Translations under genes and position numbers: made by a program
Notes under the pieces: generated by a model
Told to the model about the DNA's origin: nothing
Seen by the model: the letters and a program-made list of their open reading frames with translations, nothing else
The model's database searches: none
Shown: in pieces, positions 1 through 5,629 of the stretch
Layout of the letters: every line of letters begins with the position of its first letter
Position numbering within the stretch: the stretch's first letter is position 1
DNA from: Tepidiforma thermophila
Lineage (GTDB): Bacteria; Chloroflexota; Dehalococcoidia; Tepidiformales; Tepidiformaceae
Assembly (NCBI RefSeq): GCF_002563855.1
Contig: NZ_PDJQ01000001.1
Location: 2,232,001-2,296,000, forward strand
Length of the DNA stretch: 64,000 bases
Direction of reading: 5' to 3'

Positions 1-1098
1 GCGAACTTCATGGTGACGATGTTCCGGATGCGGGCGCCGGGCATGACGATGTTCCGGATGCCGATCTTCTGCTGGACGATGCTGGTGACGGCTGTTCTGC
101 AGCTCCTGGCGACGCCGGTGCTGGCTTCGGCGCTGGCGATGCTCTACATCGACCGGAACTTCGGCGGCTCGTTCTTTGACCCGAACGGCGGCGGCAACGC
201 GGTTCTCTGGCAGAACATTTTCTGGTTCTACTCGCACCCGGCCGTTTACATCATGATCCTGCCGGGCATGGGCATCATCTCGGAAATCCTGCCCGTCTTC
301 GCCCGGAAGCCCCTCTTCGGCTACAAGGCGTTCGTGTTCGCAACGATGGGCATCGGCGGCCTGGGCTTCAGCGTGTGGGCGCACCACATGTTCACGACCG
401 GGGCGGTGCTGAAGCCGTGGTTCGGGTTCATGACCTTCATGATCGGCGTGCCCACCGGCGTGAAGATGTTCAACTGGCTGGGCACGCTCTGGCGGGGCTC
501 GATTACCTTCGAGGCGCCGATGCTGTTCGCGCTCGGCTTCCTGAGCATGTTCCTCATCGGCGGCATCAACGGGACCTTCTCGGCAGCGGTGCCGGTCGAC
601 TTCGCGATTCACGACACCTATTTCGTGGTCGCGCACATCCATTACGTGCTGTTCGGCGGGGCGGTGTTCGCGGTATTCGCGGGCCTGTACTACTGGTTCC
701 CGAAGATCTGGGGCCGGCGGCTCGATGAGCGGCTGGCGCGGATCCATTTCGCGCTGCAGTTCATCGGGTTTAACCTGGCGTTCTTCCCGATGCACCTGCT
801 CGGCCTGGACGGGATGCCGCGGCGTATCGCGACCTACTCCGAGAGCAGCGGCTGGGAGACGCTCAACCTGATTTCGACGATCGGCGCGTTCCTCATCGGC
901 GTCGCCATGATCCCGTTCATCATCAACGTGGTGATGGCGTTCATGCGGCCGAAAGATCAGCCGAACGACCCATGGCAGGCGAACACCCTGGAGTGGTGGA
1001 CCAGCTCGCCGCCGCCGGCGCACAACTTTGATGACCTTCCCGAGGTCCACTCCGAGCGGCCGCTCTGGGACCTGCGCCACGGCAAGGCGGCCCATTAA
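1..1098 (+). CDS. ctaD: cytochrome c oxidase subunit I, 5' part outside window
   Basis: Catalytic heme-copper subunit of the terminal oxidase, where electrons from cytochrome c pass via heme a to the heme a3-CuB site and O2 is reduced. The frame is open from base 1 (Ala-Asn-Phe before the first Met at 10), so the gene begins upstream and the N-terminal part is missing. Counting from that Met, YSHPAVY lies at 74-80 and carries the CuB histidine and the cross-linked tyrosine. The glutamate of the common HPEVY motif is alanine and Tyr-Ser precedes the His, which is the signature of A2-type oxidases. WAHHMF gives the other CuB histidines and VAHIHY the heme ligands. ctaE follows after 57 bases. 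Identity is certain; only the length is unknown. Confidence 0.97.
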   Translation, partial: ANFMVTMFRMRAPGMTMFRMPIFCWTMLVTAVLQLLATPVLASALAMLYIDRNFGGSFFDPNGGGNAVLWQNIFWFYSHPAVYIMILPGMGIISEILPVFARKPLFGYKAFVFATMGIGGLGFSVWAHHMFTTGAVLKPWFGFMTFMIGVPTGVKMFNWLGTLWRGSITFEAPMLFALGFLSMFLIGGINGTFSAAVPVDFAIHDTYFVVAHIHYVLFGGAVFAVFAGLYYWFPKIWGRRLDERLARIHFALQFIGFNLAFFPMHLLGLDGMPRRIATYSESSGWETLNLISTIGAFLIGVAMIPFIINVVMAFMRPKDQPNDPWQANTLEWWTSSPPPAHNFDDLPEVHSERPLWDLRHGKAAH

Positions 1099-1155: not shown

Positions 1156-1767
1156 ATGGCAGCGCATGCGGTCGCCACCCAGCACAAGCAGGGCCTGAGC
1201 AATGGGATGCTCGGCTTCATCCTCTTCCTCGCGTCGGAGGTGATGTTCTTCGGCGGGCTGTTCGCCGCCTACTTCATCGCCCGGGCCGACGCGAGGGAGT
1301 GGCCGCCGGAATATCTGCTGACGCCGGAGCAGGTGGCGGCCGGCGTGAAGCTGGAAGTGGAGTTCTGGCTCCCGTTCATCGCGACCATTCTCCTTGTGAC
1401 CAGCTCGGTGACCATCCAGCTCGCGGTCTTCTCGATTCAGCGAGGGAACCGCTCGGGCCTGATCCGCTGGACGTTCGTCTCGATCGTCCTCGGCCTCGTG
1501 TTCCTCATCATGCAGATGTATGACTACAGCCAGCTCCACTTCGGAGTGGGCGACACGATTTACGGGACCACGTTCTACACCCTCACCGGCTTCCACGGCC
1601 TGCATGTGGCGGGCGGCGTGGTCTTCATGGGCATCATCCTGGCGCGCTCGCTCGCCGGGCAGTTCACTGCGGCGAATCACGAAGCCGTCGAGGCGTGCTC
1701 GTTCTACTGGCACTTCGTCGACGTGGTGTGGATCGCGCTGTTCACCACGCTCTACATCATTCCCTAG
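1156..1767 (+). CDS. ctaE: cytochrome c oxidase subunit III
   Basis: Integral membrane subunit III of the aa3-type oxidase; it stabilises the catalytic core and lines a proton/oxygen path. The 203-residue protein is the short bacterial form. It opens with the family segment LGFILFLASEVMFFGGLFAAY at about 19-39 and ends with the conserved FHGLHV and the SFYWHFVDVVWIALF helix typical of subunit III. A good Shine-Dalgarno (ggagg) lies seven bases before the ATG. It sits between ctaD and the fused subunit gene and is surely cotranscribed with them. Confidence 0.96.
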   Translation: MAAHAVATQHKQGLSNGMLGFILFLASEVMFFGGLFAAYFIARADAREWPPEYLLTPEQVAAGVKLEVEFWLPFIATILLVTSSVTIQLAVFSIQRGNRSGLIRWTFVSIVLGLVFLIMQMYDYSQLHFGVGDTIYGTTFYTLTGFHGLHVAGGVVFMGIILARSLAGQFTAANHEAVEACSFYWHFVDVVWIALFTTLYIIP

Positions 1768-1803: not shown

Positions 1804-2895
1804 ATGGACCACCAGGCGAACGCACACGGCGAACACCACGACGTCCACCTGCCGGACCCAAGCATCTGGCCACTCGTCGTCGGGGTCGCCGCGCTCTTCC
1901 TCGGCGCTGCGCTGATTTACTGGTCGCGCGTCGATGACAAAACGTTCGCCGGTCCGCTGCTCGGCGCGGCCATCGTGTCGGCGCTCATTGCGGTGTTCGG
2001 CTGGGCATACGAAGACGGCCAGATGCGCAAGAAGGCGGCGATGGGCGGCCATGGGCAGGCTGCGCCGACGCGGTACACGCAGGTCGTGACGTTCGCACTC
2101 GCCGAGGGGAAGCTGGAGCAGGCGCGGAAATCCGGCATCATCCACGACCTCGAAAGCAGCGACAACCAGCTGCGCGACCTCGACGGGTTCCAGGACCTCC
2201 GGATCATCGTCTCGCCGGCGGCAACGGGGCCGTCGCAGGTGCTGGTCGAAACGACGTGGTCGGACCGGGAAGGTCTGGCAACCTACGAGGAGACTCGCCA
2301 GACGATGCTGGACATCATCGCCCGGCACACGGACGAAGTGGTCCCCGGGACCGTGCAGGTCTTCGACATGGAGGTCATCCGGGACACCAAGGATGTTACC
2401 TTCCGGTTCGGGACCGGTGCGGCGTTCACGGTCATCGCCGGGCTGATGCTCGGCGGATTCATGGTGGGCGCCGGCCTGAATCTCTTCGCGAGCGAATCGA
2501 CCGGCACGGGCGGTGGAGCGCCTGCCCCGACCCCTGTGGACAACCCGTTCCGGGTGATTGCGACGGACAATAAGTTTGACAAGAAAGAGATCGTCGCCGG
2601 TCCGAATGCGGAGATCACGATTACGCTGGTCAACCGCGGCCGCGCGAAGCACAACATTCACTTCTATGACCGGAAGGGCGGACAAACGCTGGCGCCCGGC
2701 GCCGAGGGCGCCATTATCGACGGGGGCATGGAGACGAAGGTGACGTTTGTTACGCCAGGCCCCGGCGAGTACTACTTTGTCTGCGACCTGCACCCGGACC
2801 AGATGGACGGCATCTTCCGCGTGGTGGAGGGAGGCCCGGTGGGCACCGGCGAGCCGCCGGCCACCCCGGAAGCTTCTCCAGCGCCGGAAGGCTAA
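1804..2895 (+). CDS. fusion protein: oxidase subunit IV-like membrane domain, ABM-like domain, cupredoxin
   Basis: Last gene of the oxidase cluster, 36 bases after ctaE. Three parts are visible in 363 residues. Residues 1-75 hold two membrane helices with a His-rich start, like the small subunit IV (CtaF/CoxD) normally found at this place. Residues about 90-195 resemble a dimeric alpha/beta-barrel of the ABM kind (TRYTQVVTFALAEGK to a second half with QVLVETTWSDREGL). After a third helix (about 205-225) comes a cupredoxin domain with type I copper ligands: the His in KHNIHFYD and Cys, His and Met in CDLHPDQM. The C-terminus is a Pro/Ala/Glu tail. I infer that it anchors in the membrane and presents a copper electron carrier outside; the role of the ABM part is unknown. 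The overall architecture is not one I recognise. Confidence 0.85.
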   Translation: MDHQANAHGEHHDVHLPDPSIWPLVVGVAALFLGAALIYWSRVDDKTFAGPLLGAAIVSALIAVFGWAYEDGQMRKKAAMGGHGQAAPTRYTQVVTFALAEGKLEQARKSGIIHDLESSDNQLRDLDGFQDLRIIVSPAATGPSQVLVETTWSDREGLATYEETRQTMLDIIARHTDEVVPGTVQVFDMEVIRDTKDVTFRFGTGAAFTVIAGLMLGGFMVGAGLNLFASESTGTGGGAPAPTPVDNPFRVIATDNKFDKKEIVAGPNAEITITLVNRGRAKHNIHFYDRKGGQTLAPGAEGAIIDGGMETKVTFVTPGPGEYYFVCDLHPDQMDGIFRVVEGGPVGTGEPPATPEASPAPEG

Positions 2896-2932: not shown

Positions 2933-2966
2933 GAGAGGCCACCGTCGGGCGGTGGCCTCTCTTTTT
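2933..2966 (+). terminator. Rho-independent terminator of the oxidase cluster
   Basis: A perfect 11-base-pair stem (2933-2943 with 2951-2961) closes a 7-base loop and is followed by five T at 2962-2966. It lies 37 bases after the last oxidase gene and faces the CoA-transferase genes on the other strand. Confidence 0.93.
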
Positions 2967-3041: not shown

Positions 3042-4343
3042 TCACTCAAAGACGCCTTCGGTCATCAGCTCGACGAACTCCTCGTCGGAGAGGCCGACAA
3101 TCTCCTTGAAGACGTACTCGTTGTGCTCGCCGAGGAGCGGGGCGGGCCGGGTCAGTTCGGCGGGCGTCTTCGAGAGCTTGAAGGCGGGCGAGTCGTAGGT
3201 GCGAAGCCCCATCCGGGGGTGCTCAAGCTTCCAGTAGTGGTGGCGGTGGGCGAGCTGCGGGTCGGCGTGCATCTCTTCAGGCGACTGGACGATGCCGCAG
3301 GGGACCCCAAATGACTGGAAGAGCTGGACGACTTCTTCCGTGGTGTACTTGCGGACCGGCGGGCCTTCGACGCCCTCTTCGACCTGGAGGGCGGCCTCGC
3401 TGGGAAGCCGGGTAAAGTCCTCGAACCAGAAGGTGAGATGCCGGTCGATTTCCTTCTGCTCGTTGATGCGCTGCCAGCGGCGGCGCATGCGCTCCATGTC
3501 GCACCACTCGGGGCGGCCGAGCGCGGCTTTGAGCCCCTCCCAGTGCTTTTCGGTCTCGCAGGCGATGACGACCCAGCGGCCGTCGCGACAGCGGTAGGCG
3601 TTGTGGGGGGCCGCCTCGAGGTCGTGGTTGCCCAGGCGGGTTTGCTCGTGGCCGTTGACAGTCCAGTCGAGGATGGCCGTCCAGAGGCCGTGGATGGCGG
3701 CTTCGAACTGTGAGAAGTCGATGTACTGGCCCTGGCCGGTGCGGCGGCGGTAGTCGAGCGCGGCGATGAGAGCGATGGCGGCGAAATGCGGGACGAGGAA
3801 GTCGGTGTAGGCGACGCCGGTGCCGATGGGCGGGCCATCTTCCCAGCCGGTGAAGTGGTTGAAGCCGGCGGCTGCCTGGAGGACGTGTCCGTAGCCTGCA
3901 TAGTGCGCCCACGGGCCGGTCTGCCCGTAGAGGGGCATGGAGATCATGATGACGTCAGGGCGGATTTGCCGGACCGATTCGTAGTCGAAGCCGAAGCGGG
4001 CCATGGTGCCGGGCGTGTACGACTCGGTGACGACATCGCAGTGGGCGAGCAGGCGCCGCACAAGGTCCGGGCCCCTGGGGTGCTTGAAATTGATGGTGAC
4101 GCCGAGCTTCGAGCTGTTGAAGTTCGCGAAGTAGCCGGAGCCGTCGAGGTCGGGGACATCATCGACGAAGGGACCGGCGCGCCGGAGGGTCTCGGGGTAG
4201 GTGGAGCTTTCGATGCGGATAACTTCGGCGCCGTGGTCGGCGAGGTACTTGGAGACAAGCGGGCCGACGCCGACCCAGGCGAAATCGGCGACGCGGATGC
4301 CTTCGAACGGCTTCTTGAGCGGCGGCTGGGAATGTTCGGGCAC
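3042..4343 (-). CDS. class III CoA-transferase (CaiB/BaiF family)
   Basis: Moves CoA between carboxylic acids. The 433-residue protein begins its domain with FEGIRVADFAWVGVGPLVSK and AEVIRIES, the usual CoA-binding start of the family, and has the GQGQYIDFSQFEA motif near 215. The expected catalytic aspartate is present in AYTDFL at about 190. It is the second gene of a pair: the preceding paralogue ends two bases before this ATG, so the two are translationally linked. Pairs of this kind form heteromeric transferases in, for example, benzylsuccinate degradation (BbsEF). The substrate cannot be told from the sequence. Confidence 0.9.
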   Translation of the reverse strand: MPEHSQPPLKKPFEGIRVADFAWVGVGPLVSKYLADHGAEVIRIESSTYPETLRRAGPFVDDVPDLDGSGYFANFNSSKLGVTINFKHPRGPDLVRRLLAHCDVVTESYTPGTMARFGFDYESVRQIRPDVIMISMPLYGQTGPWAHYAGYGHVLQAAAGFNHFTGWEDGPPIGTGVAYTDFLVPHFAAIALIAALDYRRRTGQGQYIDFSQFEAAIHGLWTAILDWTVNGHEQTRLGNHDLEAAPHNAYRCRDGRWVVIACETEKHWEGLKAALGRPEWCDMERMRRRWQRINEQKEIDRHLTFWFEDFTRLPSEAALQVEEGVEGPPVRKYTTEEVVQLFQSFGVPCGIVQSPEEMHADPQLAHRHHYWKLEHPRMGLRTYDSPAFKLSKTPAELTRPAPLLGEHNEYVFKEIVGLSDEEFVELMTEGVFE

Positions 4344-4345
4344 GG

Positions 4346-5629
4346 TCAGATCACCATCCTGAGGCGGAGCCGGCGGAGTTCCTGGGGTTCGAGCCCGAGG
4401 AGCCCGCAGTACACCTCATCGTTATGTTCACCGAGGTGCGGGGCGCGGCCGCGCTGCTGCCAAGGGGTGGCAGACAGGCGGAAGGGTGGGCCGGGATAGG
4501 TGAACGACTGGCCGATGTCCTCGTGGGCGACGCGGACCCAGTAATCCCGGGCTGCGAGCTGCCTGTTTTCGACGATCTCGCGAGGGCTGAGGACGGGCGC
4601 CCATCCGGCACCCCGGCGCTGCGCTTCTTCGACCAGCTCCTCTTTCTTTCGCGTGCGGCAGAAGGCAGCCATGGTGGCTTCAACGTATTTCCGGTCTTCG
4701 GGCGAGAGCGGCTGGCCAGAGGTGAGGCGGGTGCGCCATTCCTGGGAATCAAGGCCGCGGGCTTCGCCATGCTCGGCGAGCCAGTCGATAATCGCGTTGG
4801 CGTTCGGCCCGATGAGACCGCCGGCCTGCAGGGCTGCGACCCAGCCGTCGGCGGTCTCGAACAGGTAGCGGGCCGTGCGGACGCCGGCGGCGTTTCGGTA
4901 GAGGCCGGGACCCGACGCGTTGACGCGGCGGATATCCCAGGTCTGCTGCGCATTGTCCATTGCGTTGGCGACGGCCTCCTGCATCGAGACATCGACGTGC
5001 TGGCCGATGCCCCCGTTGACGCCGCGGGCGTACAACGCGACGAGCGCGCCGACCATCGCCTGGACGTTGACCTGGGTGTAGGCCTGGGGGACGGTGGTGC
5101 GGACCGGGCCGCGTTCGGGGTCGCCATTGAGATACATGAGGCCGCCCATGGCGGCGCCGACGATATCGGTGGCGTGCCAGCGGGCGTAGGGGCCATCCTG
5201 CCCGAAGCCGGTGATGGAGACGAGGATTGCGGAGGGGTTGATGCGTTCGATCGTCGGGTAATCGAGCCCAAGCGCAGCCGCCTCACCGGGCATGGTGGTC
5301 TCGATGACGATGTCGGAGATGGCAACGAGGCGGTGGAAGAGTTCGCGGCCGGCCTCCAGCTTGAGCTGGAGGGTGATGGAGCGTTTGCCGGCGTTCATCG
5401 TCCACCAGAAGAGGCTGGTTTCGGTTCCGGCCTCATTGCGGAAGAAGGGTGCGTGCTGCCTGCCGGGGTCGCCGTCGCGCGGGGGCTCGACCTTGATAAC
5501 GTCGGCGCCGAGCTCGGCAAGGAGCCGGGCGCCGAGCTGGCCTTTTTCGTCGGCGAGGTCGAGGACGCGGTACCCGGCGAGCGGCCCGGACGGGTGAGGG
5601 AGCGGAACAGGCGGCCGTTCTGGGTTCAT
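4346..5629 (-). CDS. class III CoA-transferase (CaiB/BaiF family), catalytic Asp replaced
   Basis: First gene of the tandem CoA-transferase pair, 427 residues and full length. It has the family start GYRVLDLADEKG, AELGADVIKVEPP, and the late GIGQHVDVSMQEA motif. Where the downstream partner has the catalytic aspartate (AYTDFL), this protein reads AYTQVN, so glutamine seems to occupy the position. I therefore infer a non-catalytic or regulatory subunit that pairs with the downstream protein. The alternative is an alignment shift, with another acid serving. The substrate is unknown. Confidence 0.88.
   Translation of the reverse strand: MNPERPPVPLPHPSGPLAGYRVLDLADEKGQLGARLLAELGADVIKVEPPRDGDPGRQHAPFFRNEAGTETSLFWWTMNAGKRSITLQLKLEAGRELFHRLVAISDIVIETTMPGEAAALGLDYPTIERINPSAILVSITGFGQDGPYARWHATDIVGAAMGGLMYLNGDPERGPVRTTVPQAYTQVNVQAMVGALVALYARGVNGGIGQHVDVSMQEAVANAMDNAQQTWDIRRVNASGPGLYRNAAGVRTARYLFETADGWVAALQAGGLIGPNANAIIDWLAEHGEARGLDSQEWRTRLTSGQPLSPEDRKYVEATMAAFCRTRKKEELVEEAQRRGAGWAPVLSPREIVENRQLAARDYWVRVAHEDIGQSFTYPGPPFRLSATPWQQRGRAPHLGEHNDEVYCGLLGLEPQELRRLRLRMVI

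Follow-up and report, generated by a model that had tools for sequence, protein, structure and literature searches.

A probable cytochrome c oxidase subunit of Tepidiforma thermophila with a tethered type-1 copper domain

The window analysed here, a stretch of 64,000 nucleotides, corresponds to positions 2,232,001-2,296,000 of the 2.74-Mb single-contig genome of Tepidiforma thermophila. It opens within a cytochrome c oxidase (cta) cluster of the order ctaA-ctaB-ctaC-ctaD-ctaE, followed by a reading frame for which the original prediction had proposed a fusion of subunit IV-like helices, a dimeric alpha/beta-barrel-like domain, another helix and a type I copper domain. The relevant features are the following (window positions):

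1-1098 (+), 3' part of ctaD (subunit I), Pfam COX1 match with E 6e-118
1156-1767 (+), ctaE (subunit III), short form of 203 aa without TM1-2, Pfam COX3 match
1804-2895 (+), uninterrupted ORF of 363 aa, hairpin-ABM-TM-cupredoxin fusion, last gene of the cta cluster
1846-2013 (+), residues 15-70, HLPDPSIWP motif and two-helix hairpin resembling subunit III TM1-2 and the C-terminal half of CtaF
2065-2379 (+), residues 88-192, ABM-fold (dimeric alpha+beta barrel) domain, predicted cytoplasmic
2413-2481 (+), residues 204-226, third helix, predicted to bring the C-terminus to the P side
2542-2829 (+), residues 247-342, type-1 cupredoxin domain (PF13473)
2650-2652 (+), copper ligand His283 (KHNIHF), read from the sequence and conserved in 51/51 homologues
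2782-2805 (+), copper ligands Cys327, His330 and Met334 (CDLHPDQM), with C..H...M in 51/51 homologues
2933-2961 (+), intrinsic-terminator-like hairpin closing the cluster, 13 pairs followed by TTTTT

The fusion gene starts 36 bases after ctaE. The CtaE product matches the Pfam COX3 profile only from position 65 onwards and the actinobacterial CtaE model with an E-value of 9e-48, under that model's cut-off. The full-length ctaD (G000:C1:2231488-2233098) encodes 536 aa and lacks the C-terminal hairpin, and the CtaC of the cluster (266 aa) carries the CuA motif. Two neighbouring genes (window 3042-5629), CoA-transferase-like by sequence reading, are convergent to the oxidase cluster. The 363-residue frame is a real gene: besides being uninterrupted, its product is 89-94% identical across the other genomes of the genus (91% in the T. 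flava homologue), and about the same domain order is kept in ~30 of 36 Tepidiformaceae genomes.

The C-terminal domain matched Pfam Cupredoxin_1 (PF13473) over residues 245-336 with an E-value of 2.4e-9 (37.6 bits against a cut-off of 27). The ligands are those originally claimed, and the His plus C..H...M motif was found in 32/32 homologues of the family and in 19/19 other homologues. Based on the family match and the His-Cys-His-Met set, the domain is assigned from its sequence as a type-1 cupredoxin. Ten Tepidiformaceae homologues have tandem cupredoxins, with the ligands kept in both copies. The duplication is not confined to this family, as an f17 relative (L079:6236-7633) also has two tandem cupredoxins. 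The mean Lys/Arg counts across the family were 4.6 after helix 2, 2.9 before helix 3 and 0.3 after helix 3. Such Lys/Arg-rich flanks on both sides of the ABM domain, dropping to near zero after the third helix, suggest that the ABM domain is cytoplasmic and the cupredoxin outside.

Beyond the cupredoxin, the fusion protein alone has no confident Pfam match, and relatives were therefore used for the domain calls. A search of the fusion protein itself with Pfam ABM (PF03992) gave no match at E<1. The middle domains of 9 of 21 relatives did match it (best E 2.6e-4), one relative (L149) scoring above the cut-off, and a profile of the relatives' middle domains found PDB 1tz0 and heme-degrading ABM proteins. 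Modelled alone with AlphaFold2, the domain adopted a beta-alpha-beta-beta-alpha-beta arrangement (pLDDT 85); the full-length model was usable for this part only and poor elsewhere. Foldseek against the PDB returned 1tz0, IsdI and IsdG first, and the leading matches were ABM or dimeric alpha+beta barrel proteins. Among aligned family members, mean identity to the fusion protein was highest in the ABM part (62%), followed by the hairpin (54%), the third helix (53%) and the cupredoxin (43%). A plain linker was ruled out by the confident fold together with this highest conservation. Domain search and structure prediction agreed with the barrel-like domain originally proposed.

The domain shares its predicted fold with PF03992 proteins such as B. 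cereus 1tz0 and IsdG/IsdI but, unlike them, is membrane-tethered. The catalytic Trp66 of IsdI aligns with Tyr161 (hmmsearch alignment to 4fnh, which is IsdI W66Y), and the catalytic Asn and the heme-ligand His lie outside the alignments. The canonical heme-monooxygenase residue set was thus not found, and a canonical heme-degrading enzyme of the IsdG/IsdI type is unsupported. As had been remarked, an ABM domain still has no obvious role in a respiratory complex; our best guess is that it may serve as a dimer scaffold. Since a single protein spans both membrane faces and the ABM domain is its most conserved part, one could imagine a redox sensor or regulator, with the P-side copper domain reading the electron supply and the cytoplasmic domain relaying it to the oxidase, for instance at the entrance of the D pathway, which is modulated by subunit III loops (PMC8361435), or to other proteins. 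We consider this very improbable, because neither an output domain nor a regulatory partner was seen and the parts also occur separately, as detailed below; the original suggestion that the copper carrier senses the oxidase found no specific support.

Helix prediction gave residues 22-43 and 50-80 for the two N-terminal helices and residues 204-222 for the third. When a profile of the N-terminal segments was compared with 177,635 PDB sequences, the best 15 matches were COX3 N-termini (E 0.0014-0.03), and the Thermus subunit I+III chain was also among the matches. In other families of the class, CtaD ends in an HxPxPSxxP two-helix tail, which hhalign aligned with the fusion hairpin profile at 98.4% probability (E 5.6e-15). 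The CtaD-tail profile in turn matched COX3 (E 8e-7), the subunit I C-termini of aa3-600 and bo3, and mycobacterial CtaF. At the level of these profiles, the two helices were confirmed as the TM1-2 hairpin of subunit III. The original label "subunit IV-like" is thereby corrected to the subunit III hairpin, a module that actinobacterial CtaF supplies as well. The CtaF family PF12270 did not match the fusion protein above its curated cut-off; it gave weak matches in 6 of 19 hairpins, and only the relative L149 (family f111) passed (29.0 against 26.9 bits). A COX4_pro-type CtaF was rejected as an identity for the hairpin, other families having a separate COX4_pro gene besides the CtaD hairpin, and Pfam matches of the segment to TctB, DUF4131 and DUF4381 were judged to be generic two-helix matches. 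Stand-alone two-helix proteins of 82 and 85 aa, hairpin-like and away from oxidase genes, are encoded in G030 (L050:7710-7958 and L051:7378-7635).

The partners of the hairpin are as expected for a TM1-2 or CtaF-type module, CtaE being short and CtaD having no hairpin of its own. The tail after the PPP motif of CtaD measures 25-37 aa in Tepidiformaceae versus 103-110 aa in other families. The tail hairpin was absent from 13/13 Tepidiformaceae oxidase-1 CtaDs checked and present in the oxidase-1-type CtaDs of other families wherever these were read to the end. Hence, the hairpin has apparently moved onto the copper protein. Read most simply, the hairpin may have left the C-terminus of CtaD for the N-terminus of the ABM protein, or else have been inherited in a form like CtaF. 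In mycobacteria, CtaE and CtaF together constitute subunit III and make the contact with complex III (PMC8361435). Actinobacterial CtaF (PF12270) is alike in carrying a related PSxWP-type hairpin and completing a short CtaE beside a tail-less CtaD, whereas the Tepidiforma hairpin lacks the N-terminal half of CtaF and is fused to ABM domain, helix and cupredoxin.

Among 400 sampled Chloroflexota genomes, only those of the class of Tepidiforma (Dehalococcoidia) yielded the ABM domain; within the class, 59 of 393 genomes have it. The hairpin-ABM-TM-cupredoxin order is that of Tepidiformaceae (f1). In at least five other families of the class (f17, f44, f125, f129 and f135), an ABM-3TM-cupredoxin gene lies by the cta cluster, adjoining cta genes in most loci and usually convergent. 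In the three such loci read in detail, ctaF and ctaG stand between it and ctaE; its products would have the same sidedness as the Tepidiforma protein. Family f133 has in the same place a 3TM-cupredoxin without recognisable ABM domain (clear in L183, with other ligand spacing in L184 and N-masked in L185), and f23 a stand-alone ABM protein. One f111 genome encodes, immediately after ctaA-ctaB, a 191-aa hairpin-ABM protein without cupredoxin (L149:4049-4624). This protein, together with the lower conservation of the cupredoxin relative to hairpin and ABM domain, would fit a structural subunit in which the copper domain is a vestige or mere copper store. We find this scarcely credible given that the type-1 ligands are all retained in 51/51 homologues, including both copies of the tandem duplicates.

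We have then compared the copper genes with the form of CtaC. A CxxCH motif, indicative of a fused cytochrome c, was found in the CtaC of 0/38 loci of copper-module genomes (a few of these CtaC frames being incomplete), Tepidiformaceae and three f133 loci included. Conversely, CtaC has CxxCH after CuA in 27/27 sampled genomes without the ABM gene. The wider context was read in four of these caa3-type genomes (L044, L045, L186 and L187), and no cupredoxin gene of such type was found by the cta cluster in those four. The three apparent exceptions, all from f133, have the 3TM-cupredoxin or a related gene in the same spot. In the sampled class, copper module and CtaC-fused cytochrome c are mutually exclusive. 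Mapped on a tree of CtaC, the caa3 label requires two changes, and one origin for all cupredoxin-type CtaC was not rejected (p-AU 0.33); the association is thus strong with thin phylogenetic replication, and we do not claim independent swaps. The pattern suggests that the tethered copper carrier took over from the cytochrome c found attached to this enzyme in related bacteria. As a separate case, a paralogous oxidase carries a type-1 cupredoxin instead of cytochrome c at the C-terminus of CtaC2 in G058 and G418 (families f23 and f44; L188:10687-11970 and L102:3299-3823).

The electron supply was surveyed with PF00034 and PF13442. The T. thermophila genome has two cytochrome c domains, one of which belongs to a protein that looks CopD-like in our reading. 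The other is part of a 616-aa protein that also contains five LysM repeats and, at its C-terminus, a plastocyanin-like domain (Copper-bind, E 0.009, under the cut-off). It is encoded in a cytochrome b/subunit IV/Rieske cluster (L065:2375-6557; G000:C1 ~700.4-704.6 kb), and LysM is odd in a respiratory subunit. In a survey of 28 Tepidiformaceae genomes, most have 1-2 cytochrome c domains each, nearly all within frames >500 aa, the outliers being G008 with four, including two short partial matches, and G013 with none. No small soluble cytochrome c was recognisable in Tepidiformaceae with these two families, which could miss a very divergent or unusual one. The bc-complex cytochrome c-LysM-cupredoxin subunit is a plausible partner of the tethered cupredoxin. 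A separate lipoprotein cupredoxin is also encoded in the genome and could be an alternative or intermediate carrier, or even the true donor.

Taken together, we consider it likely from the sequence comparisons that the fusion protein belongs to the aa3-type oxidase as an integral subunit, with the cupredoxin as built-in electron donor to CuA. The hairpin, homologous by sequence, would stand in for TM1-2 of subunit III and complete the short CtaE as CtaF does. The ABM domain would hang beneath subunit III in the cytoplasm, perhaps forming dimers, and the third helix would put the copper domain on the P side, as suggested by the charge distribution. Judging from the swap pattern, the copper domain would take electrons from the bc complex and hand them to the CuA of CtaC, performing the job of a caa3-fused or soluble cytochrome c. 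The originally proposed feeding of the oxidase by a tethered copper carrier is thus the best-supported reading, favoured by the exclusion of the CtaC cytochrome c, by the failure to recognise a small soluble cytochrome c and by the CtaC2-cupredoxin fusions.

Four genomes (G006, G008, G014 and G022; loci L020, L011, L030 and L021) keep the gene beside ctaA-ctaB while only the second oxidase type, and not oxidase 1, was found in them; the HLPDPS motif is changed in all four proteins. The gene cannot therefore be tied to oxidase 1 alone, and mainly for this reason we do not hold the integral-subunit reading more firmly. In these genomes the protein may work with oxidase 2 or take part in assembly. 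As a general explanation, an assembly factor in which the ABM domain handles the heme (A/O) of CtaA/CtaB, the cupredoxin brings copper to CuA or CuB and the hairpin docks the protein on the nascent oxidase agrees with ctaA-ctaB being directly followed in several genomes, these four among them, by the fusion gene or a hairpin-ABM relative, and with heme-degrading IsdI and IsdG being among the best-scoring solved structures. Nevertheless, we regard it as unlikely: the four-ligand type-1 site is that of an electron-transfer protein, unlike the Met/His copper site of PCuAC (PMC9145763), the ABM domain is predicted to be cytoplasmic with Tyr161 at the IsdI Trp66 position, and copper delivery would leave the exclusion of CtaC-fused cytochrome c unexplained.

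The proposed integral subunit with a built-in donor resembles published kinds, namely CtaF for the hairpin, caa3 for the carrier and a haloarchaeal halocyanin-IIa fusion. In caa3 oxidases the built-in carrier is a cytochrome c fused to CtaC, whereas in Tepidiforma it would be a cupredoxin on the subunit III side, next to a CtaC without CxxCH. In the haloarchaeal ba3 oxidase, halocyanin is fused to subunit IIa (PMC3128077), and there too the helix of a small oxidase subunit carries a blue copper protein, described as the redox partner. This likeness concerns the working only; that enzyme is an archaeal B-type oxidase, the helix is another one (IIa, beside subunit II) and there is no ABM domain. 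According to a work cited in PMC8756737, a cupredoxin also replaces heme c in subunit II of eNOR, a heme-copper enzyme but an NO reductase, with the copper domain in subunit II. Among open-licence papers, we met none that links cytochrome c oxidase with both a cupredoxin and an ABM domain, and thus no account of the fusion as a long-described oxidase subunit; no title or abstract on Tepidiforma and cytochrome concerned the fusion gene.

More tentatively, the Tepidiformaceae chain may work without mobile cytochrome c, electrons passing from the bc cytochrome c-LysM-cupredoxin subunit through the tethered cupredoxin (sometimes two in series) to CuA within an obligate bc-aa3 supercomplex whose halves would be held together by the cytoplasmic ABM dimer. 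If true, it would be a copper-wired analogue of the III2IV2 complex of mycobacteria. Apart from this reading, the built-in carrier of the oxidase has probably been swapped lineage-wide from heme c to type-1 copper, together with a subunit III hairpin moving between subunits. The family thus provides a testable case, outside Actinobacteria, of respiration that does without soluble cytochrome c, and the ABM domain gains a first context within a respiratory complex.

The second aa3-type oxidase of T. thermophila (L066:3314-7182; G000:C1 ~921-925 kb) has an N-terminally extended CtaD2. The gene that follows encodes a conserved membrane protein of 146 aa, which has a CSFH motif, matches no Pfam family and may be a degenerate form of a tethered cupredoxin.
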